Source of the DNA: a virus
Strand: one strand, 5' to 3'
IMG/VR virus record: IMGVR_UViG_3300029951_001069
Span: 1-27,958 of that record
Length of the DNA: 27,958 nt
Shown here in pieces: positions 1 through 27,958 of the stretch. The first letter of the stretch is position 1. Each line of letters starts with the position of its first letter. Position numbers and translations under genes: made by a program. The notes below the pieces were generated by a model. The model was given only the letters and a program-made list of their open reading frames with translations. It did not search any database and was not told where the DNA came from.

Positions 1-1686
1 GCACTCCAGGAGGAGCACGGGTCGATGGGACTCGCCAAGGCGCACGGGTGCTGGGAGAGTGAACGACGGGGTTGCACCGCCACCGCCACCGTAGATACCC
101 ACCTCGCCGGTTGCGACAGCCGCCGTGGCTTGGAGCTGGTCGGTCATGTTCTGAGCGGACACCGTGCCGGAGAACTTGGCGTTACCAGAACGGTCCACGG
201 CGAACACTGCGTTGTTCCAGTTCTTTGCGCCGGCACCCACCCATACCGGATAGGCATCGCCTGGGTTGTTCGTCAGCTCTGCACGGAACTCCAGCGGGTT
301 GATGATGTTTCCATTGCCGTCGAGCTGGAACGTACGGAACGTCCCGCCGTTCACTTCGCCCATGTTGGCCGTGATGGCAGACAGCGTGTTCGTGGTGATC
401 TTGTTCGCTGTGATCGAGCCATCAACGATGAGCTGGCCCGTGATACCGACCGTGCTCACGCCACCGACCGTCCCGACCACGAACGGGTACTTCATCTGCT
501 GCACGCCACCTGTGGACGTGTAGGTGGGCGAGACGATGCCGAAGCGGTCCGCCATGACGATGAAATTGGAGCCGGTCTTTGAATCGACACCCAGGCCGAT
601 GCCAGCGACAACAGGGACACCATCGATCTTCCCGCCGTTGATACGGACGGTCCAGTTCGCTTGCCACTCCGCAGCTCCACCGGGATCGGCAGAGCCTGTG
701 ACCAGGGCCTCGAAGCGCTGCTGAAGGTTCGCAAAGGAACCACTGGAGAACGCTTCGACCTGCTGGGTCGCAATGACCTTCGCTTGGTCCTTAGTGGTGT
801 AGGTGGTCGCTAAGGTCTGATAGATCGCCTGGTTTGCCAGGTTGAAATCGGAGGAGACCTTTGTGATCGCCGAGGCTCGCGCTTCGGTCTCGTTCGCGAC
901 AGCCTGGTTCACGATAGTGATCTGCGACTTGTTGTCTGCGATGGCTGCGCTGAGTTGAGTTGCGGAGGTGGTGCGCGCTTCGGTTTCCGTAGCGAGCGCC
1001 TCGCGGACCTCAATGAATTGCGCGGCCGAAGTGTCGAACTTCGCGAATAGCTCGGTGATCTGCTTTGCGATGGCATGGCTGTTATCAACGAAGCCGGAGA
1101 TCGAAGTCTCGGCAATCGTCAGCCGACCGTTGATCTTGCGGCGCTCATCGAACGTCTGCTCGCTGCGGAGGAGTTCCTCTAGGAGCGTCTCCGCAGTGCC
1201 GTCGATGTCATCTAGTCGGCTCACCAGCAGACCCATGATGGGCGACTGCATGAGCGCGTCGATGATCTGCTGGATCGGGAGGGATGGCGTGGAGCCACCA
1301 GGGTTCGGCCAGCCAGAGCCACCACCGGGGAGGCCGCCACCGCCGTACATGCCGAAGTCGATCTGCTCTTGGCAGATGTAGAGGAGCTGCTTGGTGTTTA
1401 GGTTCAAGTCCTTCGCGGGCAGCTGCGCGCCGTCATGGTAGACAGCGAGCGTGTCGTCGCGCGGGGTGAACCTACGGATGGTCACAAGGATGCCATCGGG
1501 CACCTCTGCGGCCAGCTGAATTTCGGTGGAGCCAATCCGCTTGAAGGACTGTTCCACAGCATCCCCTACATCCCCCGCGAACACACGAATGTCATCCGTG
1601 CGCAGGTAGGGAAAAGGGATGGTGTACGTGGCCGATCCCTTCGCCAGATACATGACGAAGGAATAGCCACGGGCCAGTGGGGTCAT
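1..1686 (-). CDS. Tail fibre, T7 gp17-like N-terminus with gpJ-like C-terminal part (partial, runs off left edge)
   Basis: Open frame of 562 codons from ATG at 1686 to base 1 with no stop, so the C-terminus is outside the window. Residues 1-110 match the T7 tail-fibre N-terminal domain that attaches the fibre to the tail (ARGYSFVMYLAKGSATYTIP, then PFPYLRTDDIRVF). A glycine/proline-rich hinge follows at about 112-135. Residues 140-320 are helical with repeated ETEAR units (near 226 and 266), typical of coiled segments in lambda gpJ-type proteins. Residues about 323-440 resemble the gpJ C-terminal DUF1983 region (ADRFGIV, then GQLIVDGSITANKITTNTLS). The start has a good ribosome site (AGGAG, 4 bases upstream) and lies 16 bases after the gp16-like stop. 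It should be a virion protein for host recognition. Family assignment rests on motif recall. Confidence 0.9.
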   Translation of the reverse strand, partial: MTPLARGYSFVMYLAKGSATYTIPFPYLRTDDIRVFAGDVGDAVEQSFKRIGSTEIQLAAEVPDGILVTIRRFTPRDDTLAVYHDGAQLPAKDLNLNTKQLLYICQEQIDFGMYGGGGLPGGGSGWPNPGGSTPSLPIQQIIDALMQSPIMGLLVSRLDDIDGTAETLLEELLRSEQTFDERRKINGRLTIAETSISGFVDNSHAIAKQITELFAKFDTSAAQFIEVREALATETEARTTSATQLSAAIADNKSQITIVNQAVANETEARASAITKVSSDFNLANQAIYQTLATTYTTKDQAKVIATQQVEAFSSGSFANLQQRFEALVTGSADPGGAAEWQANWTVRINGGKIDGVPVVAGIGLGVDSKTGSNFIVMADRFGIVSPTYTSTGGVQQMKYPFVVGTVGGVSTVGITGQLIVDGSITANKITTNTLSAITANMGEVNGGTFRTFQLDGNGNIINPLEFRAELTNNPGDAYPVWVGAGAKNWNNAVFAVDRSGNAKFSGTVSAQNMTDQLQATAAVATGEVGIYGGGGGATPSFTLPAPVRLGESHRPVLLLEC

Positions 1687-1701
1687 TGGTCTCCTGAGGG
1701 G

Positions 1702-4700
1702 TTAATACTGCTGCTGGTTCTGCTTTGCATCGGGAAGCTGTCGCGCCGCTGCTGCGCCCACGTTGCGCCATCCGGTTACGTTGGAGAACCAGAGAGCAGA
1801 CCATGCGGCCTGAAAGTCCTGTTTGGTTACCTGCTTGTTCGGATCGATCGCATGCGCGGGGATACCTGCGATTGCGTAGAGTCGCTGTAGTGTTCCGATT
1901 GCAGGGATGCCGAGGATGCCCGACTGGAGCCCTGAAGAGCGCCCATAGGCGAACACAGGATCTTGCTGGGCAATGTCATGCCATGCGGTATCGATGACCA
2001 TCGGGATGATCGAGGAGAAGCTGGACTGCATGAAGCCGGCTTTGAATAGCGCTCCTGGTGCGAGCTGACGCTCGCGGCCTTCAGGATCACCGATGGTGTT
2101 CAAGTAGGAACGCGCTGCCATGCCAACGGTCGCGAAGAACGTCGAAGTAGTCATCATTCCGAACGTCTGCCAGTCCCGCATGTGCAACCCGTTGAGTAGG
2201 TGACGCGTGTAGGAGGTGGTCATAAACGAACGGAACTGCGAGAACATCTTACCTACGTCGGAGTGCATGAGCTGGACGGTGTCGCCGACGTCGCCTTCAA
2301 TGACTTGGTGGCGCGTGATGTTCCACATATACGAAGACAGTGAGGTCTTCTCCTGAGGCGTCCAGGTGTGAAACTCCTTCTCCATCTGATCGAGATTCTT
2401 GATCCCCTTCAGCTTCCCAAAGATCAACGATTGGTCCGCTTCGGACATGCCGGAGTTACGCAGACGGTCGATGTGGGCTTGCTTGAGAATGTCGCGATTA
2501 GCGAAGTCGATCAGACGATGCATGGAGGAACGCGCGGCGAACCGCTGGAGGAGCGTCTGCATCGGTGCCATACCTGAGGCGACCGAAATGACACGCTTGG
2601 CAACCTGCTGGGCATTGTCGAGCTTGTTGAGGCCGGAGTTGATCTTCGTGCTGACCTTACCGGCCAGCATGTTCGACACGTCAGCGTCGTTCCAGCGTCC
2701 ATGGCCGAAGTCATCGGTGCGAAGGTATGCGGGGTTGCGGGACCAGTCCGTACCGGGGGCACAGATGTCGTCGAGCATGTTGGCGACCGGATGCTCGAAG
2801 GCTCCGCTCTTCATGCGCTTAAGCATTCCCTGCATTTCAGGCACGGCCTTCAGGGTAGCCCTGAGGCCCGCATAGGCAATCGTTGGGCCGAGTTCGGCCA
2901 TCATCGTGAAGCCCACCTGCCCCATCATGGAGAGGTGTGCGTTGTCACGCACGAGACGTCCCCAACGACCCAACGCCGCATCGGGGTTCTCTGAGGTGGA
3001 CCTACCGAGGATAGAGTTGGTGGTGATGTCGAACAGACGGTGCGTAGATACAACGTCGTCCTTAGCTTTCGCAGCCTCTTCGCCAAGTTGTAGGCGGTAC
3101 GCGTCGAGTTCGGACTGCGAGCCGATGCCGAGCTTCTGGTGCAATGCGGCCCAGCCCATTTGCTCGCGGCCATATGACGGGACGATGTGTTGGATGTTGT
3201 TCTCCAGGAGATCGGAGATGCCTACGTCATACGCGTTGCCGTCATCGCCCGTGAGCGTGGCGCGATAGTTCTCGTCCATCTCAATGCGGGACTTGGTGCG
3301 AGCGTGACTCGCGCGATCCTTGTTGCCTGCCTTCAGCGGCTCCACCATCGCCTTGATCTTCGACTCTTCGACTCCCGCACCGCGCAGCAGCGCTTCAATG
3401 GAGTCGGTGTCCTTCAGCGACAGGCTCATGTGCAGGGCTTGGCCCTGATCCATCGCCTTCGTGTGCATTCGGTCCAGCCATGCAGTCGCCACGGCCTTGA
3501 GCGTGTCCTCATTTACACCGCCCTCGCCTACATTGTGTTCCCACTTGCTTCGCATGGCAGGCATGACGACGTTCTCGATGAAGTCCGCGTGGCGGATAGT
3601 CTTCGTTCCAAACACGTCCTCGAAACCGCGACGCTTGGGAACACGCGGTAGATAGTCCGCAGCGCTGGTGATTCCCTCCCAACCAGGAACGCCGTTGGCC
3701 TGCATGTGCTGGCGAACTTCGTCGAAGTGGTTCTGCGCTTCCGCAGCAAGACGCTTCACCGCAGGTGGAGCATCTGCCTTCGGGTTTCGGATATGGTCAC
3801 CTACTTGTTCGAAGAAGTCGGCTCGACCAGCGGTGTCGAACATGCGCAGGCCGTTCTCGCGAGCATGCTCTGTCCACGCGCTATTCACTGCCGGCTGCCA
3901 CTTGGACTGCATTAGCGCTTCGGTGCGATGAGCCATCTGCGATGCTGTCTCTCCTTGGGCAACGCTCTTGTCTGCGGAACCCACACCGTCACGCACACCC
4001 TTCCAGCCGAAGTCTCGGGTGAGTGCGGAGTTCATCTTGTTTAGGCGCGCGGAGATATCGCGGCGTGCGCCGGCAAATGCTACCTGGATGTGCGAGTTCG
4101 CATAGGCCTCGTCGAGACGCTTCTTCGCAGCTTCACTCAGATTGATTTCGGGACCATCGACAGAACTGACGCCCGTGCGGACACGAGCGGAACCCATTGA
4201 GTCCGCCATGTTGCCCACGCGGGCTTCGTTGGCGATCCTCTCGGCACTCTTCGCCATGTGCGCGACCTCATGGTCAGCGAAGCCGGCGATGCCACCTGCG
4301 AAGATGAAGGAGGCAGCAGCCATCCCCGCGATGTCCGTTCCGGTAATTTCAGGGTTGTAGTGCGACTCTGCGGCTCCCGCTGCGGCAGCTTCGGCAGCAC
4401 CTACGCTACCTGTCACAGCCATCGACTTCAGTCGGCCAGGAGCAAGGTTTTTGGCGACGCCTGCGGCCGTTGTGGCTGCTTTGGTAGCCGTAGTACCCGC
4501 ATGCTCTATTGCAGAGAGCGTAGCGGCGTCCTCGGCGGAAGATGCGCCGATGTAACCAGCACGGATCGCGCGGGCCTCTGTAACGGCCTCTGTGGCTCCC
4601 TTGGCGAGCTTGCTGGCTGCATTGGCCGCACGCGCTGCCTTACCTGCACGCCCGAAGACAGCAGCGGCAGTTACGGGTGATGCAATGGCGTCCAGTGCAA

Positions 4701-5160
4701 CCATGCCAGGATCGATGGTTCCAGCAAGGAGCGTACTGCCCAGGCCGGAGTTACGCAGCGTCTCTGCCGCCATCGTGTTCTCGTGCGCGACACCGAACAG
4801 ATAGTCCTCGTGCTCCTTCGAGAACGCACTCTTCGCCAGATCTACTTGATCAGGCATGCCGGCTTTGATGAGGCGCTCAGCGAACGCCTTGGACTCCTTC
4901 CATCCGTAGTCGGGATCAACAGGCATCTTTGAGGATGTCAGTCCGCGATCCACGAGGCCAATAGTCCCCTCAACACTGGACGCGCCGAGTGTCTCGCCGA
5001 ACGAGGTGTTGTCCTTGATGCGCTTCTGCTCGGCGGCTGTTGCCCGGTCGGCTATGTCCTGCTGCGCCTGAGAGACGACAGGGGCACGTTGGGCCGATGG
5101 TGTTCGCGGATCAAGGAAGATCGGCGAGCTAAAAACGTCTGAGGGGCTAGTGGATGCCAT
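1702..5160 (-). CDS. Internal virion protein D (T7 gp16-like), without transglycosylase domain
   Basis: 1152-residue protein in the T7 gene 16 position, between gp15-like and tail-fibre genes. In T7 this protein is ejected with gp14 and gp15 and helps form the trans-envelope DNA conduit. T7 gp16 is 1318 residues and starts with a lytic transglycosylase domain. Here the N-terminus (MASTSPSDVF, with a run of polar helical sequence) shows no transglycosylase signature, and the protein is shorter by about that domain. An Ala/Gly-rich hydrophobic stretch lies around residues 240-300. The rest is long, mainly helical and Ala-rich. Start ATG has GGAG five bases upstream. The call rests on position, size and composition more than on single motifs. 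Confidence 0.85.
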   Translation of the reverse strand: MASTSPSDVFSSPIFLDPRTPSAQRAPVVSQAQQDIADRATAAEQKRIKDNTSFGETLGASSVEGTIGLVDRGLTSSKMPVDPDYGWKESKAFAERLIKAGMPDQVDLAKSAFSKEHEDYLFGVAHENTMAAETLRNSGLGSTLLAGTIDPGMVALDAIASPVTAAAVFGRAGKAARAANAASKLAKGATEAVTEARAIRAGYIGASSAEDAATLSAIEHAGTTATKAATTAAGVAKNLAPGRLKSMAVTGSVGAAEAAAAGAAESHYNPEITGTDIAGMAAASFIFAGGIAGFADHEVAHMAKSAERIANEARVGNMADSMGSARVRTGVSSVDGPEINLSEAAKKRLDEAYANSHIQVAFAGARRDISARLNKMNSALTRDFGWKGVRDGVGSADKSVAQGETASQMAHRTEALMQSKWQPAVNSAWTEHARENGLRMFDTAGRADFFEQVGDHIRNPKADAPPAVKRLAAEAQNHFDEVRQHMQANGVPGWEGITSAADYLPRVPKRRGFEDVFGTKTIRHADFIENVVMPAMRSKWEHNVGEGGVNEDTLKAVATAWLDRMHTKAMDQGQALHMSLSLKDTDSIEALLRGAGVEESKIKAMVEPLKAGNKDRASHARTKSRIEMDENYRATLTGDDGNAYDVGISDLLENNIQHIVPSYGREQMGWAALHQKLGIGSQSELDAYRLQLGEEAAKAKDDVVSTHRLFDITTNSILGRSTSENPDAALGRWGRLVRDNAHLSMMGQVGFTMMAELGPTIAYAGLRATLKAVPEMQGMLKRMKSGAFEHPVANMLDDICAPGTDWSRNPAYLRTDDFGHGRWNDADVSNMLAGKVSTKINSGLNKLDNAQQVAKRVISVASGMAPMQTLLQRFAARSSMHRLIDFANRDILKQAHIDRLRNSGMSEADQSLIFGKLKGIKNLDQMEKEFHTWTPQEKTSLSSYMWNITRHQVIEGDVGDTVQLMHSDVGKMFSQFRSFMTTSYTRHLLNGLHMRDWQTFGMMTTSTFFATVGMAARSYLNTIGDPEGRERQLAPGALFKAGFMQSSFSSIIPMVIDTAWHDIAQQDPVFAYGRSSGLQSGILGIPAIGTLQRLYAIAGIPAHAIDPNKQVTKQDFQAAWSALWFSNVTGWRNVGAAAARQLPDAKQNQQQY

Positions 5161-5175
5161 GAAGACTCCGTGGGG

Positions 5176-7509
5176 TTAGTGTGTATTCGAGAGGAAGTCG
5201 ATGAAGGACTGAGGGGCCAGTGAGGGATCGATGCCGCCCTTTGGGATCACCGACGTGGCGGGGTTCGGGTTGGGAGCGGCTTTCTTCCACTCGCGCTTCA
5301 TCTGGTACTTACCGATGTTGGAGTACGTGGTGTCGAGCTGCTCAATCCGTTTGTCCACAGCGACGTCCTTTACCTTCTCTTGGTCAACCCATGCGACATG
5401 CTTCGCAGCCAATGTCTCTGGATCGAATACAAGGGGAACCTCCACCTTCCTCGTGTGGCCCTGCTCGTCAGTGATCTCTTTCTCGACAGTCACCGGGTAC
5501 GGCGTGGAGAAGCCGCTGCGTCGGATCATCTGAACCTTGCCAGGATCTCCCTTGACCGGCGCGACGAAGATGCCCTCGTCCTCGGTCATCACTCCGCGCT
5601 TCACGAGGTTCGCTTTGGTATCGATCGTTAGCTGATTGGCAGCCTTGGCTCCCTCATCGCTCATACCTGCACGCGGGACCAACTCCGTCCCTACAGGGAC
5701 GCGTCCAGCCATAACAAGAGCTTTCGCTTCGTCCCAAGCCTTTTGCTGGTTGGAGCCGTAGTGGCCTGTCGCCAGGAGGTCTTCGTACCGCTTACCGATC
5801 TCTTCGCGCACGAAGTCCTCATTGGTAACCCTGTCGCCTGTGAAGGGCACATGGAAGCCAAGGAACTTGGTGTCGTTGACGACATCGAGCGGCGCATCGC
5901 GGTTGGCCTGAGCAACCTTCCCACCGATGCGCTTCACCGTGTCAGGGTCAAGCGGCTGCACATCGGCCATCTCGGACAGCGCAGCCTGCGGCGACATCTT
6001 CATTGTCTCGACGCGTGTCTGGTACGCAGAGAACTGCGCTTTGGCTTCAGTCGATAGCATGCGATCCGCGTACTGCGGGTTCACCATCGCGGCCTGCTGG
6101 TGGAGCGCGAAGAGCGCCTGGAACATCTCAGGGTTCTTCGGGTTGGCCGAGGAGTACATGGCCTGAACCTCAGGAGTGATCGCACCTGTGTGGGCGTTCT
6201 GCTGTAGGTAACGTGTGAAGTTCGCTAGACCTTCAGTCTTGCCGTTCTCATCCTTCGACATCGCGGCCTTCAGATACCCAGAGGTGGCCGATGCGAACGC
6301 GCGGTTGTCCGCCTTGGTAAGTTCAGAGCCACCGTGAGCAGCGGCGAACGAGGCGCGGGCCACAGGATCACCAGAGGCAGCCACGACATCCGCGTTAGCC
6401 TTGAGGGCCTTCTCCTCGGATTCCTTCGCGGCACGGATTGCTCCTGCGCGGTTCATTGCGTGAAGGCCGGTGCGGGTTTCATTGGTCACGATGTCGGGGA
6501 ACTGCTTTGCCAGCAAGGTGATCTCGCTGTCAGTCAGTCCGCCGTACTGCGCCTTGTCGGAAAGACGGTTGTAGTTCGCAACGTAGGCGTCGGCCTGCTG
6601 TTTTACCTGTGCATCCTTCTGGACACGCAGGCCCTTGTCAGCCGCAGCATCGAGCTGGCTGCGCAGATTCGCACCGCCGTTCTTACTTCCGGTGATCCAG
6701 TAGACGCCAGGGGTGCCATCAGGATGGGAAGCCTTCAGGGCATCAAGGGTTGCCTCAATGTTCCCCTTACCGATCGCGAGGTGCGATGCGGCTGCGTTCG
6801 CGATCATTACGTTCGCATCGGCGGGATGGATGTTGTTCTTCCGCGCGTAGGCGTAGAAGTTGTCGATAGCTCCAGGCTGCTGCATGGTGCCAGCTTCAAA
6901 CCCTGTGGCCGCGATGGCCTCGACCTGATCGTGCAGGCGTGCCACGGTTTCGTCGTGGGACTGCTTGATGAACTCGGTCTTTAGAGCATCAGCGGACTTC
7001 GCCATGGATTGAAGGAGTACCGCGCGAGCCTGAGGTGCGAGCGGTCCCTGAGCATCAATGAACTCCTGGGATTTCTGCTTGACGATCTGATCGATATTCG
7101 CGTCGGGATCAAGACCGGCAACAACCGTGGACATCTCACGGGAGAATTTCTGGCCGGCCAGGATGCCCGTGGTTTCGTGGTAACCCTCAAGGGCCGCATC
7201 GGATTTTGCGAGCCACGCCTGGGCCTCTTCGCTGGACGGCTCGCCTGTGATGGACTGCTTGTTGGCAAGTGCTTTGCCGCCCTCCATGTCAACAACGTCC
7301 TGAGCCTTCTTGTTGCGAGCCTGCACCTGCGACACGGTGTTCGAGATAGACGCTGCGTGATCGTTGAGGGAGTTGATGAGCGCAAAGGCAGCATTGCTGG
7401 ACCGCGCGTATGCGTCTTGGCTCGCTTGAACACCCAGGCCAACGTTCGCGGTCTGAGAGCTGTCCACGACATTGCGTGGCTTGATCTGTACGGGGCCGCT
7501 TGCGGGCAT
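5176..7509 (-). CDS. Internal virion protein C (T7 gp15-like)
   Basis: 777 residues, close to T7 gp15 (747), and placed between the gp14-like and gp16-like genes as in T7. The protein is soluble-looking, helical, and rich in Ala, Gln, Lys and Asp, with no membrane segment or signal peptide. In T7, gp15 is part of the internal core and is ejected into the periplasm with gp16 to help move the DNA in. The ATG at 7509 is preceded by AAGGAACCTCC, a ribosome site shared with the gp12-like gene. No catalytic motif is evident. Assigned mainly by gene order and length. Confidence 0.85.
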   Translation of the reverse strand: MPASGPVQIKPRNVVDSSQTANVGLGVQASQDAYARSSNAAFALINSLNDHAASISNTVSQVQARNKKAQDVVDMEGGKALANKQSITGEPSSEEAQAWLAKSDAALEGYHETTGILAGQKFSREMSTVVAGLDPDANIDQIVKQKSQEFIDAQGPLAPQARAVLLQSMAKSADALKTEFIKQSHDETVARLHDQVEAIAATGFEAGTMQQPGAIDNFYAYARKNNIHPADANVMIANAAASHLAIGKGNIEATLDALKASHPDGTPGVYWITGSKNGGANLRSQLDAAADKGLRVQKDAQVKQQADAYVANYNRLSDKAQYGGLTDSEITLLAKQFPDIVTNETRTGLHAMNRAGAIRAAKESEEKALKANADVVAASGDPVARASFAAAHGGSELTKADNRAFASATSGYLKAAMSKDENGKTEGLANFTRYLQQNAHTGAITPEVQAMYSSANPKNPEMFQALFALHQQAAMVNPQYADRMLSTEAKAQFSAYQTRVETMKMSPQAALSEMADVQPLDPDTVKRIGGKVAQANRDAPLDVVNDTKFLGFHVPFTGDRVTNEDFVREEIGKRYEDLLATGHYGSNQQKAWDEAKALVMAGRVPVGTELVPRAGMSDEGAKAANQLTIDTKANLVKRGVMTEDEGIFVAPVKGDPGKVQMIRRSGFSTPYPVTVEKEITDEQGHTRKVEVPLVFDPETLAAKHVAWVDQEKVKDVAVDKRIEQLDTTYSNIGKYQMKREWKKAAPNPNPATSVIPKGGIDPSLAPQSFIDFLSNTH

Positions 7510-7974: not shown

Positions 7975-8432
7975 TACTGGTGGATTCCGAACTCAATGAA
8001 AGGGAGTCCGTTGAAGAAGTGAATCTTCATCGGACTGAACCCCAGGTGGAGGAGCCAGAGATGCGCTTTGTAGTGGCGCGCATCTACGAAGTTGAACATT
8101 GCGGTGAAGCACTCGCCCCAGGCCGCAACGTATTCAGCCGACACTTCGAGGAATCGGCGACACACTCGCCCCTTCGGGCCGGTTGAGAGCATCCAGGGCA
8201 CGCCGATGTGGTCGTGTCCGTTGAGCGAATGAACACCGAAGACGGCCTGAGGCTTGCCTTCCCACCAAGCCATGTAGGCCTCGTGATAGGAACCTTGGCA
8301 ATCCACGGATGCCTTGAGAGATTCCAGAGGGCTACTCCAGCCGTGCGCTTCCAGCTCGGCCTGGTCCGCCGCGCATAGGCGGTCTGCAAGGTCGGCCAAT
8401 AGCTCATGCCGTACTTCGGTGATCTCGATCAC
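7974..8432 (-). CDS. Internal virion protein A (T7 gp13-like, acetyltransferase-fold)
   Basis: 152 residues with a GTG start that overlaps the gp12-like stop in a GTGA motif (8429-8432). The nearest upstream ATG alternatives lie deep inside gp12. T7 gp13 is 138 residues. The C-terminal pattern (FNFVDARHYKAHLWLLHLGF, residues about 119-138) resembles the last strands of GNAT-like phage proteins, where 'N...hiRfL..lGF' is common, and matches the T7 gp13 segment with HIRFLKTIGA. The central AVFGVHSL segment also fits. In T7 the protein is needed for correct morphogenesis. Enzyme activity is not implied. Confidence 0.8.
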   Translation of the reverse strand: MIEITEVRHELLADLADRLCAADQAELEAHGWSSPLESLKASVDCQGSYHEAYMAWWEGKPQAVFGVHSLNGHDHIGVPWMLSTGPKGRVCRRFLEVSAEYVAAWGECFTAMFNFVDARHYKAHLWLLHLGFSPMKIHFFNGLPFIEFGIHQ

Positions 8433-10627
8433 ATGCGTACCTGCGTCGTGTAAAGTGCCTCCCATTGCACGCTTTGGAAGCGCGCCTGGAAGGGCGAATC
8501 GTTCTCGAAGATCACGCGTGCGCGGTCAGCGCGGGACGGCACAAGGAAAGCGTGTGTGCCATCAACGGACGCTGGCGTGCCAAGCAGGAACGCAGAGTCA
8601 CCCGCAGTGCGAGCGCTGTACGTGGACTGCAAGCCAGCGACTAGCGTGTCTACCGCGCCAGGACGAGCCTTGGTCAATACCTTCACTTTGAAATAGGCGG
8701 TGTCCTGGAAGCGCACAGTCATTCGACGCAGCTGGAGCCGGCCAGCGAGCTGAGCCCGTTCGTTCTGATCCCTTAGGTACTGCTGGCTAAGTTCGAGGGA
8801 CTGCGTGTAGCGGTAGCCGACCATGACGCGCCCTGCCCCAATGTTCCCAGGCATGCGGATCGTCTGCCCGCCGTTGACTAGGGCGGCCTTGCGGGTGTCG
8901 ATGAAGGCTCCGGGGTTCTCCCGGTCTACCGTCTGGAGAACCTGAAGGCCCTCAAGCGTCGGCATCACGTAGGGAACCGTTATGTCCGTGTAGTTACCAA
9001 ACGCCTGATAGACAGGCGTGACCACCTCTCGACGATCCAGAAGAATGTCCTCTGTACTCGACACAACCGACTCGACGGGACAGTTGCTCAAGTCCATCTT
9101 CATCAGCTCTGCGCCGCCACCAGGAGCGACAGCGACCACGTAGAGGTCCGTACCGATGGCGTACATGTGCAGCACTGCACCCATCGTCGTGATCTGCCAG
9201 GGATGCCATGCAGATTGCTGCTTGGTGTCGCCGGACCACTTGAACTGGTGGACGTACACCTGGGGGCCAGTGGGATTCCGATGGGCCAGGAGGATCAGAT
9301 TGGCGTCCTGGGCGGAGGCCATGCAGCGAGTGTCTCCTGGGATGTAGTGCGGAACGTGCGCGGACACGTCGGCGGCATCGGGAGTGATGATGTCGGACTG
9401 CACGAAGTATTCCCGCAAGGTGCTCCAGGGTTTCCCCTGGGTGTCGTTGAGGAAGAACACGGACGAGCCGGCCACCACGGGAGCAATGAAGGGAGAGCAC
9501 TGGTAGTTTGTGACCGGGGCGATCTTCACCGTCTTCGGCGTAAGCACAGGATCACCCGTCAGCTGGAACATGCTCTTCGTGCCCGACGCGTACAGCAACA
9601 ATGCCGACTGGTAGGACAAGGCGTGAGTGAACTGCGCGACGCCCTCGGAGGGGCCTGCGACATCGATGGGGTCACTATCGAGAAGCGAGGTGACCGTAGT
9701 GCGCCAGAAGTTCATGTAGTGCCCGACTTCCGACAGGACTACATTCTCGCCGGCCAGGAAGCCGAGACGGTCGTGGTGATACACCGCGTTACCGATGCGC
9801 TGCCCCACAAAAGAAGGTGGCGGACACGAATACTCGTCACCCGCATAGCGCATGTCGTACTGGAGCGGGCCGTAGCTGAAATAGAAACCGTCCGGCGTGG
9901 TGCCATCCGGGATGCGCTTCAGGCCATGAGGCATGGTCTCGAAGTCGAAAGAACTCTTGATTCCAGGTTTCGCTGCCTCAGCCCACACGCCAGCGGACTC
10001 GCGGCTGACGTAGGTGCGCGTGAAGGCATCATTGGTTGCCCCTCGGATTTCGTACACGCCTCCGCCGACTCCATTCTTCGGAAGGTCTTGGAAGGTTTGT
10101 ACGCTTCCCACGATTCCACCGGAGGGGACAACAAACGTGAACTTCGGGAGGAAACCATAGCCAGGATCGTTGATGTTGATCCCACCAGTAGGTGGAGTTG
10201 GGACAACATCGTTCGACATCTTCACCACCACCTCTCGGTTGACGATGAATGTGTAGTCTTCAACCGTAACGGCCCGCATGGACACATGTGGGTCGAATTG
10301 AGTCCGTAGGTACTGGCGTGACTGCTCGTGCATCACGACGAGGTGCTCTTTGCCTGAGACGTGGTTGAACACACGCACGCGTCCGTCGTAGATCACGACG
10401 ATGTAACGCTCCTGTGCGTCACGCTCGATGCTATGGAAGAACGCGTTTGCTGGGATGTCCCAGCCGAGCTGGTTTACAAAGGTTGCCGGTGGGCGCTTAC
10501 AAGCACCGAGAGCGGGACTGAGGTCGCAGTTGAGTGCGGCCTCGATCTGTGACGGTAGACGTACAGACGAGTCCTGCTGAGACACGCCCCCGATCAGAGA
10601 GGGGATCGTGCCTTTGATTAGGGGCAT
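8429..10627 (-). CDS. Tail tubular protein B / nozzle (T7 gp12-like)
   Basis: 732 residues (T7 gp12 is 794). The N-terminus MPLIKGTIPSLIGGVSQQDS aligns with the T7 gp12 start (MALISQSIKNLKGGISQQPD). Later segments match as well: RVFNHVSGKEHLVV, then MRAVTVEDYTFIVNREVVVK (T7 has LRMVTVADYTFIVNRNVVA). In T7 this protein forms the tail nozzle below gp11, to which the fibres attach. The ATG at 10627 is preceded by TTAAGGAACCTC and lies eight bases after the gp11-like stop. The gene end overlaps the next gene by four bases (GTGA). Confidence 0.95.
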   Translation of the reverse strand: MPLIKGTIPSLIGGVSQQDSSVRLPSQIEAALNCDLSPALGACKRPPATFVNQLGWDIPANAFFHSIERDAQERYIVVIYDGRVRVFNHVSGKEHLVVMHEQSRQYLRTQFDPHVSMRAVTVEDYTFIVNREVVVKMSNDVVPTPPTGGININDPGYGFLPKFTFVVPSGGIVGSVQTFQDLPKNGVGGGVYEIRGATNDAFTRTYVSRESAGVWAEAAKPGIKSSFDFETMPHGLKRIPDGTTPDGFYFSYGPLQYDMRYAGDEYSCPPPSFVGQRIGNAVYHHDRLGFLAGENVVLSEVGHYMNFWRTTVTSLLDSDPIDVAGPSEGVAQFTHALSYQSALLLYASGTKSMFQLTGDPVLTPKTVKIAPVTNYQCSPFIAPVVAGSSVFFLNDTQGKPWSTLREYFVQSDIITPDAADVSAHVPHYIPGDTRCMASAQDANLILLAHRNPTGPQVYVHQFKWSGDTKQQSAWHPWQITTMGAVLHMYAIGTDLYVVAVAPGGGAELMKMDLSNCPVESVVSSTEDILLDRREVVTPVYQAFGNYTDITVPYVMPTLEGLQVLQTVDRENPGAFIDTRKAALVNGGQTIRMPGNIGAGRVMVGYRYTQSLELSQQYLRDQNERAQLAGRLQLRRMTVRFQDTAYFKVKVLTKARPGAVDTLVAGLQSTYSARTAGDSAFLLGTPASVDGTHAFLVPSRADRARVIFENDSPFQARFQSVQWEALYTTQVRM

Positions 10628-10635
10628 GAGGTTCC

Positions 10636-11220
10636 TTAACGCTGCCAGATTTCCAGCACGTCGTTCGAGTCGTTGAAGAAATTGCCTGCGAGTTCGTACT
10701 CACGCTCCTCACGCTGGAGCGAGTCGGCTGCGGCCTTCTCGTGCTCCCTGGTAAACGTGAAGAGCTGATCGCTGCCGAGCTGGCTGGTCTGGAAGACCGT
10801 GGCTGCGTGAACGGTGATGTAGCGGCGTGCGGACTCCGGCAGCTCCTCGAAGGGGAACAGCCATGTCACGTTGACGACGGGAGGCGCATCAGGGCTGAAG
10901 ACGAAGGTGCTGGCATCAGCGTTGTAGAGCTTGCCGGCGCGCGGCGTAATGCGGCGCGACTCGGATCGAGCTGGGCGAATCGAGATGACGCTCTGCGGCA
11001 GCACGACGATTCCGTCTGCGCCAGGAGTAAACGCGTAGTCGTCGTCCTTGTTGAAGTACCAGCCACGCGTCTGTAGCTCGCGAGACGTGGTACGAATTTG
11101 ATCGCGCGCAATGGCAGCGTCGGTGAAGCCGATGGTCTCCAGCGAATCCACAGGGACTTCGCCGACTGCCTTCAGCAACTCGTTGACGGCCTCAAGCTCC
11201 GTTGTGGGCTGAAGGTTCAT
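10636..11220 (-). CDS. Tail tubular protein A / gatekeeper adaptor (T7 gp11-like)
   Basis: 194 residues, almost the T7 gp11 length (196). I place the start at ATG 11220 (MNLQPTTELEAVNELLKAVG). A longer frame to 11325 would run through the terminator and into the capsid gene. The N-terminal helix (AVNELLKAVGE), LQTRGWYFNKDDDY (T7 and relatives have QSRGWTFN-type sequence) and the RRYITVHAATVFQ segment are typical of the family. In T7 this protein forms the ring between the portal and gp12. It is the first gene after the T-phi-like terminator, so its expression depends on readthrough or an unseen promoter. Confidence 0.95.
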   Translation of the reverse strand: MNLQPTTELEAVNELLKAVGEVPVDSLETIGFTDAAIARDQIRTTSRELQTRGWYFNKDDDYAFTPGADGIVVLPQSVISIRPARSESRRITPRAGKLYNADASTFVFSPDAPPVVNVTWLFPFEELPESARRYITVHAATVFQTSQLGSDQLFTFTREHEKAAADSLQREEREYELAGNFFNDSNDVLEIWQR

Positions 11221-11242
11221 AGGGGATTCCAAAGGGAAGAAG

Positions 11243-11279
11243 AAAAAAAGCCGAGGAGAGGGGTTAGCTCTCCCCGGCT
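11243..11279 (-). terminator. Rho-independent-type terminator after the capsid gene (T-phi position)
   Basis: On the minus strand a 12-pair stem with one A-C mismatch (arms 11249-11260 and 11268-11279, seven-base loop CTAACCC) is followed directly by seven T and a CT-rich tract. It starts nine bases after the capsid stop and ends upstream of the gp11-like gene. This is where T7 and T3 carry T-phi, which trims transcription of genes downstream of the capsid. Strong stem plus T-run makes this a confident call. Confidence 0.9.
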
Positions 11280-11287
11280 CGGGGGTG

Positions 11288-12235
11288 TTACGTACCGACT
11301 GCGATCTCGACTGCGCCGGCAGCACGCAGCGAGCCGTGGCCCAGCGCGAACTTGCTCAGCATCAGCGTGCCCTGACGACGCGGGTCGTATGCATCTTCCA
11401 GAGCGAGGTCCAGAAGCTTCAGGGTGCCAACAGCGGACTTGTGGAACACAGAGCACACGGTCTTCGTGTAGTCCGCACGCCGCGAGGTAACAACACTTGC
11501 GTTCGCCGTGTCATTCGCAGACGGGAAGTGGTTGGTCTTGACCAACGGGATACGGGCAACCGAATAGATCGTTGCCTGAGACAGCGAGCCGTTCTCGTTC
11601 GGGTTGAAGTCGCGGTTCACCAAGTCCTTGACCTGGGTCAGCAGATACCACATGGCCGGCTTCAGGAATGCAGCGCAGTCCGACTCGGCGATGTTCTTCT
11701 CGTCGAAGTTCTGACGAGCGGCACGAATCGCGTTCGCGACGGACACAGCGTTGGTAGCCATGTCGGCAGCAGTGATGATCGCCCCACCCGGCTGACCCTT
11801 CACGGGGCCGGTGGTCTGACGCGCGGCCAGAATGGCGCAACGCAGTTCGTTGAGCTGGCGCTGCTTAGCCAGTTCGAGACCCTGCTGCTTGGTGTACTCA
11901 CTACGGACGTCGTAGTGGTTCATGGCTTCGTCGATGTTCGAGATGAAGACATGCGAGATAAGCATCGGATCGAGGTTAACGATGATCTCGTTCGCCTCGA
12001 CCTGCATGCCGGTAATCTCAGTGCCCGGAACGTGGTACTCGGAACCGATGGTGCCCAAGGTCGGGAACGACGCGGACTTACCGTGCGAGATGTTCCGCTC
12101 GGTGACCATGCCGGCCATCTTGTACTCTTCGACGAACGAAGCGAGCACTTCACCAGCGTACTGCTTGAGGAACAGCGCCTTGTCATCACCAGTGCTCTGG
12201 ATTTGACCAAGACGATTCGGTACAGCGTTTGCCAT
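11288..12235 (-). CDS. Major capsid protein (T7 gp10A-like)
   Basis: 315 residues (T7 gp10A is about 345), HK97-type fold expected. N-terminus MANAVPNRLGQIQSTGDDKA, then LFLKQYAGEVLASF, follows the T7 gp10 pattern. Other family-like segments are NISHGKSASFPTLGTI (residues about 48-63), DPMLISHVFISNIDEAMNHY and the C-terminal DAYDPRRQGTLMLSKFALGH. The gene sits between scaffold and gp11-like genes and is followed immediately by a strong terminator. Its leader contains a stable hairpin (12290-12312) and an A-rich stretch before the start. I see no slippery site suggesting a 10B-like frameshift product. Confidence 0.95.
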   Translation of the reverse strand: MANAVPNRLGQIQSTGDDKALFLKQYAGEVLASFVEEYKMAGMVTERNISHGKSASFPTLGTIGSEYHVPGTEITGMQVEANEIIVNLDPMLISHVFISNIDEAMNHYDVRSEYTKQQGLELAKQRQLNELRCAILAARQTTGPVKGQPGGAIITAADMATNAVSVANAIRAARQNFDEKNIAESDCAAFLKPAMWYLLTQVKDLVNRDFNPNENGSLSQATIYSVARIPLVKTNHFPSANDTANASVVTSRRADYTKTVCSVFHKSAVGTLKLLDLALEDAYDPRRQGTLMLSKFALGHGSLRAAGAVEIAVGT

Positions 12236-25531: not shown

Positions 25532-27958
25532 TTAGGCAAAGAAATACTCGCTGGAGAGAACCAGCTGTAAGTCCAAGGTGCCCATTGGTGGAAGTGGTGG
25601 TAACTCAGCGGCCACCTCAGGCGGTAGCTGCGCCTCCAGCTCGCGCTTGAAGTCGCCTAAGACGTCACCGCTGTACTGGTTGACGAAGGCTTGACGAAGA
25701 GAAGCAGCAAGGGTGTCGCAACGTCCCGCGTGAGTACCGTAGGAATCGTGGATCATTGCGAAGCCGGCGATGCCGTTGTGGCGGGCCACGTTGACGGTCA
25801 GCATGAGGTGGCTGGCGTCCTGGCTGTGGATGAAGTTAGGGGAGATTCCGAGGGCCTGTCGGCGACGGTCGAGTTTGTCTGAATCACTACTCAGGGTTAA
25901 TTGAACGCGGCGTCCTCCGATGTGCATGTCGATGATGCGACCGGTCGGTTCTTTGTACTCCTGGAGCACCGGGAAACCCGCACAGGTGTTCCATGAGATC
26001 GGGTGGTCGCTGGCCGATGCTACCTTCGCTGCATCGCGCAGCCAGTCCATAGCCTGTCGAGCCGCGATCACGACTTCACCAATGCAATCCCACAGAACAC
26101 CCGCGAGATAGCCAGCAGCTGCCCAATCGTCAGCCATACCGGCTTTCTTCATGGCGACCTGTACCTGCCCTCGCATCCCTTGCTTGGTCACCCCGTAAGG
26201 AAGGGTCATCACGGGCTGCTTCACGATGGAGCGGGATAGTTGGCCGTCCCACTTAATAGCCTGCTCGTCCCCTTGCTCGGCTGCCGTCCGGATGTACTTC
26301 TGCGCGAGCTTCATCACCTCCGTATAAATATCGGCGGGCTTCGCCTGGGGCGTTAGGTTCGTAGCTGATCCACCGACAGGATCACGCAGCATGGCCGAAA
26401 AGTTCTGAAGCCCGTTACAGGAGCCGTCTAGAGCGATGGGTAGGCGCGAGACGTACTCGTCACCGTTTGCCTTGTATCCAGCCCACTCGATGCACGCGGC
26501 GAGTGCGCAGAACGGAGAGTCCGCACTCTCCCACCTACGATGTCCGTCCAACGGATCGAGCGCCGAATCTAGAATCATCGCTTCGTTGTCCATAACCCAC
26601 TGCACGCGGTCATCAAAGGTCACCTTATCGACCCCGAAGCAGTTGGCGAGATGAACGGCAAGCCAGAACGCACCTGTCTCTCCAAGCTGCACCCCTTCAG
26701 CGAAGTGGAGCAGCGCCTTCGTGGCGTCGTCACCCTGCGGAGACAGCCGACCGGGGATCGGATAGATGCGGCCTCGGAAGTCCAAGGAGTGCGGGAAGTA
26801 GATAGCGCCCTCTTCGGCAAAGCGTCGGGCCACATCTATAAGATCGCGTGCAGCCACACGCTTGCTGATAGTGCGCGCGTTCTCCTCATGGGTCTCAGCG
26901 GCTGACCGCTTCCACGCCTTGAAAGCTTCCGGCTCCATATCCTTGAACACGTCACCGTGCTCAATGAGCCCGGCAGGACGTGGCGGGATCGATGTCAGCT
27001 CACGGTCGGGGAGACCAGCCACACCACCGCCGCCTTCCCATAGGGCCTCCATAACTTCCAGAACAGGACCGTTAACGGCCCAGGCGGTCTCCTGGATCGA
27101 GTTGACGGCGGCGTACACAGCCGGCATGTCCACGTTACGGAGTTCCCGGAGATACGCGCGGTTGCGGGTACGGACAAAGGATTCCCGTCCTCCCGCCGAG
27201 GTTAGGTAACCGCCGTGCCCCGTCTCGCCCCAGGGTGCCGGTGGAACCAGCATGGGTAGGCGTAGAGGAGACAACAGCGCGGTACGCTCGTGAGCAGATT
27301 CAAGCCATTCCAGCAGAGTCGGCGTCGGGCGCAGCAGTAACTCCTCACGCTTCATCCCTCGGGAGCGATCGGTATGTAACTCGGCAAAGCCCGTCGCGGC
27401 GATGAAGACCTCGATCATCTTAGAACCCAGCAGTACACCCTCGTTCCCAGGAAACTCGAAGGTTTCAACTTCCTCCCTACGCACCGCAGCATCCATTACG
27501 GCCTCTGAGTGACGACTGCTGGTGGACTTCTTCAATACCTTCTGGATATGCAGGTACAGCCCTTTGTTAGCGGCGCGGAACGCGGAGTAGTTCAGGTCGT
27601 TCTCGATGGACGTGGCGATCTTGGCCGCGACATCCTGCACCCGTGAGCGCGGGCTATTACCCAGCGTGTTGAGGCAGTGCATGACCGTGAGGTGGGCCAT
27701 CGCAGACGTGTCGAATCCAATAAGCCATTTCACGGATGCATGGCGGCGACCCGGTTTCCCGCTGGACGCCTCCGCGACAAGCGCGTTGAGAGCGTCAGTG
27801 ACAGTACCAATAGCGATGCGGAGGAGATGCTGCCCTGGGCGTGTATCCGTGGTGTCGGACTTGTCGAGCTGGCGGTTGTACCGCTCAACGCCGAGGCGAA
27901 CCGACTCTTCCTCTAGGGCGATCTGTCGGGTGGTGAGTTCGTTGTTTGTTCCGTACAT
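25532..27958 (-). CDS. Single-subunit DNA-dependent RNA polymerase (T7 gp1-like), 5' end possibly beyond window
   Basis: At least 808 residues (T7 has 883). Catalytic residues are in place: D511 in ALDGSCNGLQNFSA, K580 and Y588 in SIVKQPVMTLPYGVTKQGMR and D738 in IHDSYGTHAG; the C-terminus SSEYFFA matches the T7 'FAFA' foot. The specificity loop lies at about 666-692 and keeps R674, R684 and Q686 (T7 R746, R756, Q758), with an aspartate at 677. Residues 2-3 (YG) align with about T7 residue 28, so the true start may be upstream of the window edge. It transcribes middle and late phage genes. A proposed promoter lies within its 3' third. Confidence 0.97.
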   Translation of the reverse strand: MYGTNNELTTRQIALEEESVRLGVERYNRQLDKSDTTDTRPGQHLLRIAIGTVTDALNALVAEASSGKPGRRHASVKWLIGFDTSAMAHLTVMHCLNTLGNSPRSRVQDVAAKIATSIENDLNYSAFRAANKGLYLHIQKVLKKSTSSRHSEAVMDAAVRREEVETFEFPGNEGVLLGSKMIEVFIAATGFAELHTDRSRGMKREELLLRPTPTLLEWLESAHERTALLSPLRLPMLVPPAPWGETGHGGYLTSAGGRESFVRTRNRAYLRELRNVDMPAVYAAVNSIQETAWAVNGPVLEVMEALWEGGGGVAGLPDRELTSIPPRPAGLIEHGDVFKDMEPEAFKAWKRSAAETHEENARTISKRVAARDLIDVARRFAEEGAIYFPHSLDFRGRIYPIPGRLSPQGDDATKALLHFAEGVQLGETGAFWLAVHLANCFGVDKVTFDDRVQWVMDNEAMILDSALDPLDGHRRWESADSPFCALAACIEWAGYKANGDEYVSRLPIALDGSCNGLQNFSAMLRDPVGGSATNLTPQAKPADIYTEVMKLAQKYIRTAAEQGDEQAIKWDGQLSRSIVKQPVMTLPYGVTKQGMRGQVQVAMKKAGMADDWAAAGYLAGVLWDCIGEVVIAARQAMDWLRDAAKVASASDHPISWNTCAGFPVLQEYKEPTGRIIDMHIGGRRVQLTLSSDSDKLDRRRQALGISPNFIHSQDASHLMLTVNVARHNGIAGFAMIHDSYGTHAGRCDTLAASLRQAFVNQYSGDVLGDFKRELEAQLPPEVAAELPPLPPMGTLDLQLVLSSEYFFA
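25880..25902 (-). promoter_or_regulatory. Predicted phage RNA polymerase promoter inside the polymerase gene (T3-like)
   Basis: Minus strand AATTAACCCTGAGTAGT followed by GA, with -17 at 25902 and +1 at about 25885. It shares 19 exact bases (25889-25907) with the late promoter region and has all ten bases of the T3 promoter from -17 to -8. It faces the DNA-metabolism operon, which begins about 400 bases downstream. The same bases encode residues 685-690 of the polymerase (VQLTLS), so coding constraint on this copy is an alternative explanation. Confidence 0.6.

Follow-up and report, generated by a model that had tools for sequence, protein, structure and literature searches.

How does a short-tailed virus come to carry a tail fibre that begins like gp17 of phage T7 and continues like gpJ, the central fibre protein of lambda-type siphoviruses? 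The question is raised by the gene at the start of the window analyzed here, which spans 27,958 bases and is the entire virus record. Its main genes are all encoded on the minus strand and follow a T7-like arrangement (RNA polymerase, head-tail adaptor, scaffold, major head protein, tube, nozzle, internal virion proteins, fibre), and after the RNA polymerase there are frames that we named by eye, from sequence alone, as SSB-like, amidase-like, helicase/primase-like and polymerase-like. The fibre is thereby co-encoded with T7-type tube, nozzle and internal virion proteins (PF17212, PF25675, PF24072, phrog_342). A 777-aa frame (window 5176–7509) flanked by two internal virion protein genes had no Pfam or PHROGs matches; judged by its place, it should be a T7 gp15-like protein, and positions 2026–4338 of a Rhodanobacter genome (L106) appear to hold its counterpart.

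The fibre gene occupies positions 1–1686 on the minus strand, from an ATG at 1686 to base 1, where it is truncated after 562 codons. A second viral contig (L004) matches all 562 residues at 100% identity and extends the protein to its full 645 aa. The probable receptor-binding head (residues 516–645) lies mostly beyond the window, and the full-length view given below is taken from L004. The parts of the fibre and the tail genes that frame it are collected in Table 1.

Table 1. Parts of the fibre gene and neighboring tail and marker genes, in window coordinates.
Feature	Position	Strand	Basis and remarks
T7 gp17-type N-terminal anchor, residues 1–112	1351..1686	−	PF03906; own-record search 1351–1665; Foldseek
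Gly/Pro-rich hinge, residues 113–137	1276..1350	−	G+P content
Helical shaft, predicted coiled coil, residues 138–293	808..1275	−	AF2 helices; shaft profile against gpJ
ETEAR copy 1, residues 234–238	973..987	−	sequence
ETEAR copy 2, residues 266–270	877..891	−	sequence
Stem, residues 294–515, including PF09327/DUF1983 at 340–455 (window 322–669)	142..807	−	Pfam, stem profile, Foldseek
Jelly-roll tip, exchangeable, first 47 residues (516–562)	1..141	−	AF2; last 83 residues outside the record, present in L004
Internal virion protein, adjoining the fibre gene in T7-like order	1702..5160	−	phrog_342, E = 4.7e-115
Tail nozzle protein	8429..10627	−	PF25675, E = 1.8e-163; context for the anchor
Tail tubular protein	10636..11325	−	PF17212, E = 8.7e-42; context for the anchor and T7-type tail
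Single-subunit RNA polymerase	25532..27958	−	phrog_414, E = 1.8e-254; marks the virus as T7-like

The original prediction, drawn from the sequence, held residues 1–110 to be T7 gp17-like, and the Pfam search agreed (PF03906 at residues 8–112; 60.7 bits with a cut-off of 25.2, E = 1.7e-16). The anchor model matched the fibre anchors of Kp7, Kp9, T7 and PhiM1 in Foldseek, and a PDB sequence search matched the anchor to other phage tail spikes and fibres. A DUF1983-like segment had also been proposed, and the outcome named as refuting, a lack of any gpJ/DUF1983 profile match, did not occur: PF09327 (Phage_Tail_Tip, formerly DUF1983) was found at residues 340–455 (43.1 bits, cut-off 22, E = 4.4e-11) and scored above its cut-off in all 10 of 10 related viral records. 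PHROGs placed the first 110 residues in fibre families and residues 231–437 in another tail protein family. The proposed hinge of glycine and proline is likewise present, residues 112–137 being the 26-mer richest in these two amino acids in the whole protein (16/26), and a comparable linker precedes the shaft in Stenotrophomonas phage Philippe and in a distant relative (G073). Two ETEAR repeats fall within residues 223–440, as had been noticed; they are spaced 32 residues apart, a pair that appeared in 0 of 3,002 shaft shuffles, and two relatives (L024, L025) are short by exactly one 32-residue unit of shaft. AF2 predicted shaft helices at residues 138–146, 149–195, 203–217 and 221–314, with low pLDDT.

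The composite or parts of it recurred in 31 viral contigs (one identical over 562 residues, 30 at 61–76% identity), and the same domain order was found in bacterial genomes of Rhodanobacter (L106–L108), Dyella (L109) and Stenotrophomonas (L110, L111). More distant viral contigs among L054–L081 share this order; by eye, most of them begin with a T7-type N-terminus, which Pfam confirmed in three. The position of the gene at the record end and its repetitive helical shaft might suggest an assembly chimera or a chance match between low-complexity helices. Assembly chimerism is ruled out by the independent contigs and genomes, while the stem and tip matches fall outside the helical part, and we give an artefact of either kind virtually no weight. 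When 299 genomes of the order of Rhodanobacter were sampled, nine had a match at E 1e-10, comprising two Rhodanobacter fibres, one T7-anchored fibre (G073) and, for the rest, frames of 1,058–1,343 codons that are gpJ-like by length only. The G073 fibre (L138 770–3580, minus strand) has 937 codons and contains a Gly/Pro hinge, a shaft, a tip and a PF09327-like stem that is split and preceded by a long insertion. In another contig (L068 2173–7206), a T7-anchored fibre of 1,677 aa carries the same stem at its far end behind a long middle with stray Pfam matches only. Mycobacterium phage jiawei has the T7 anchor, and Pfam gave no PF09327 match in it.

These relatives also bear on host and lifestyle. 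Of nine related or own records, five, including the longer ones, have one integrase near an end; it adjoins tRNA-Leu in two Rhodanobacter genomes, and in one Rhodanobacter genome a 21-base piece of tRNA-Leu recurs beyond the RNA polymerase, as expected for an attachment site. By kinship, this T7-like (Autographiviridae-type) virus has a host in the Rhodanobacteraceae and is probably temperate; the window ends before the integrase region. A tyrosine integrase stands beside tRNA-Leu in the nearest relatives, T7-like Rhodanobacter prophages (L139 4429–5880, L140 14206–16942, L141 5665–7070). A second tail-fibre-like gene (530–533 aa) follows the fibre in prophages (L106 9650–11242, L109 9583–11184); the L106 copy matches PHROG tail families (E = 4.6e-20), and its equivalent in the window would fall past the record end.

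We compared region-specific profiles of the podoviral fibres with 15 gpJ-type proteins and a further four podoviral fibres; E-values refer to this small panel, and bit scores carry more weight. The anchor profile found T7-anchored fibres only, and no gpJ in the panel. The shaft profile matched Philippe and several gpJ proteins (for example phage XT34, iE 3.7e-19, and L105, iE 1.7e-16), with the proviso that helical shafts can match by composition. The stem profile matched residues 846–911 of lambda gpJ (30.7 bits, iE 2.4e-10) as well as SSU5, Xp15 and Xanthomonas prophage gpJ, and the tip profile matched L082 gpJ (110 bits), Philippe (61 bits), and Xp15 and Xanthomonas prophage gpJ (53–57 bits). 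Sequence searches matched the distal part to residues 855–1144 of PDB entry 9l9p_S (E = 2.4e-7), the central fibre gp33 of phage T1 (PMC11945409), and to Xp15 gpJ (E = 3e-8). The tblastn matches of a relative (L064) to Drexlerviridae gpJ begin at about residue 137, just past the hinge. L082 and L088 have siphovirus-like surroundings, with minor tail protein genes preceding L082 and tape-measure and minor tail genes preceding L088. Hub and FNIII domains (e.g., FNIII-A_GpJ), which Pfam finds in Xp15 gpJ and L082, had no match in the window fibre. Profiles and sequence searches thus both show homology between the distal part and siphoviral gpJ, at an identity of only ~25–29%.

The predicted structure provides weaker support for this kinship. 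Structure prediction, which had been proposed originally, gave a confident tip for the full L004 protein and no confident stem, as expected for an interleaved trimer folded as a single chain; in the stem model, pLDDT was below 50 over most of residues 1–153 of the folded part. The top PDB match of the stem and tip model, with its poorly modelled stem, was the lambda gpJ-LamB central fibre (Foldseek, E = 4.9e-7). The C-terminal domain (516–645; pLDDT mostly 80–90) matched trimeric C1q/TNF-type jelly-rolls at Z 9–12, a shared fold that shows neither kinship nor function.

With Caulobacter phage S2B left out, one branch of an unrooted tree of the stems separates podoviral from gpJ stems (98/93); the same split received 42/0 when the very long S2B row was included. 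Because the podoviral stems cluster together, separate from every gpJ stem sampled, the step between podoviruses and siphoviruses looks like one old event, for which an unrooted tree gives no direction. The fibre of Philippe (Schitoviridae) is homologous all the way from hinge through shaft and stem to tip, with 40% identity across the distal 383 residues, but lacks the T7 anchor, its first ~140 residues being common to N4-like phages (Pokken, RiverRider, PB119). Since its stem falls among T7-anchored stems (group 100/97, tree with S2B) while its N-terminus is N4-like, a later transfer between two podovirus families, to Philippe, is likely; T7-anchored stems as one clade without Philippe gave an AU p of 0.062, which leans one way only. 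The shaft and PF09327 might alternatively be a general tailed-phage fibre module with no special home in gpJ, drawn from a common pool or passed from podovirus to siphovirus. Such a history would sit well with the unrooted tree and with the occurrence of the module on the T7 anchor, the N4-like anchor and the gpJ hub, three bases unrelated to one another, but many weaker tblastn matches of the distal part are phage genes named gpJ or central fibre, and gpJ stems look more diverse than podoviral ones; we regard it as somewhat unlikely.

The original prediction had gone further, placing an exchange of receptor-binding modules between podoviruses and siphoviruses at the hinge. A T7 anchor is indeed joined to a gpJ-type part whose homology starts past the hinge, but the step looks old, and the joint that appears active is another one. 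Among ten relatives, the anchor averaged 73% identity, the shaft 67%, the stem 80% and the tip 40%; anchor, shaft and stem co-vary inside the clade, and the hinge with its flanks is kept in the window's own clade. L017 and L020 illustrate the contrast: their anchors share 95% identity, their tips 35%. At the DNA level this pair shows 91–98% identity in the anchor (86–100% across the upstream stretch and anchor), ~45% in the tip (43–63% from codon 520 to 640) and then 81–91% downstream. It looks, from these alignments, as if tips are replaced at a conserved stem/tip border near residue 515 (window ~base 141), not at the hinge. The part of the fibre that is still being swapped is the terminal head; the fusion itself is old and stable.

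A recent exchange at the hinge is favored by gpJ homology beginning right behind it, and by the tips. The L082 gpJ (1687–7149; 1,820 aa, in a 102-kb record) has a tip 45% identical to that of the fibre fragment L034 versus 25–32% to Xanthomonas gpJ tips, a value within the podoviral tip range, and gpJ tips occupy two places on the tip tree. Against it, sequence identity with gpJ is only ~25–29%, the podoviral stems form their single group, the parts other than the tip vary together, and a single gpJ-tip clade is not rejected (AU p 0.084). When the L082 tip was used as a query, L082 itself was the sole match. Unsupported by the identity values and the stem tree, a recent swap at the hinge seems to us very unlikely.

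We instead consider it highly probable that the gene encodes the receptor-binding fibre of a T7-like virus, built from a gp17-type anchor, a hinge and a gpJ-type module as an old, inherited fusion whose tip is swapped near residue 515. The sequence shows how the pieces are ordered: the gp17-type anchor comes first, and beyond the Gly/Pro hinge follows a module whose homologue makes up the distal third of gpJ in siphoviruses. As in T7, the anchor would dock fibre trimers on the tail tube and nozzle as side fibres, and a module that forms one axial fibre in lambda-type phages would here form several side fibres. The tip at the stem end would meet the host-surface receptor, as in lambda (PMC11101478). 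DNA release would have to be triggered through the T7-type tail, because the fibre lacks the gpJ hub that relays the signal to the tail tube in lambda. The fusion would be inherited with the genome, and host specificity would probably be retuned by tip replacement through recombination at the stem/tip border. A broader proposal is that a lambda-type axial fibre was made into T7-type side fibres, and that the jelly-roll tips are a pool still traded at the fixed stem/tip joint by temperate T7-like, N4-like and siphoviral phages of Xanthomonadales, three tail types using the same receptors on related hosts. We put this forward tentatively and think it unlikely as a whole. That Xanthomonadales phages share the type IV pilus as a receptor is no more than speculation, for which a literature search gave nothing.

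Compared with known systems, the fibre shares with T7 gp17 (PF03906) its N-terminal anchor and the T7-type tail encoded in the same record, but it carries a gpJ-type shaft, stem and jelly-roll tip in place of the shaft and tip of T7. With siphoviral gpJ (lambda gpJ, T1 gp33, Xp15 gpJ) it shares the helical shaft and PF09327 stem, and with the gpJ of Xp15, Xanthomonas prophages and L082 also the tip; unlike these proteins, it is built on a T7 anchor and has neither hub nor FNIII domains. The receptor-binding domain of lambda gpJ is Ig-like (PMC11101478). The nearest public precedents are gp14 of S2B and a fibre of Pseudomonas phage DEV. S2B gp14 (Autographiviridae, MN857473) has the T7 anchor (E = 5.4e-22) and was deposited as DUF1983, but its PF09327 score is below the cut-off (19.3 bits, cut-off 22), it has no Gly/Pro hinge, and its branch in the stem tree is very long. 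The DEV short fibre gp56 (Schitoviridae) is another podoviral fibre whose main part resembles gpJ, and its authors suggest horizontal spread of the module; it differs in connecting to the tail tube and recruiting a separate receptor-binding protein, gp54, with no T7 anchor described (PMC12892993). DUF1983 has appeared among C-terminal receptor-binding domains in a search starting from the T7 anchor (PMC9230537), and a short-tailed phage protein combining DUF1983 with COG4733 had been noted by 2016 (PMC5155283). Within the literature searched, we found no paper describing a T7-anchor/gpJ-stem fibre or naming PF03906 and PF09327 together.

The mosaic is real and well supported, as a variant of known fibre modularity; possible novelties are its conservation in a temperate clade, the occurrence of the module on three tail bases, and the tip joint. 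The fibre is a clear natural example of a single receptor-binding module mounted on three tail bases of unrelated kinds, with a sharp tip-replacement joint. It suggests that the same distal fibre can serve singly on the tail axis and, by inference, in several copies as side fibres. Host prediction could also gain, as tips seen in long-tailed prophages may be informative for short-tailed ones.
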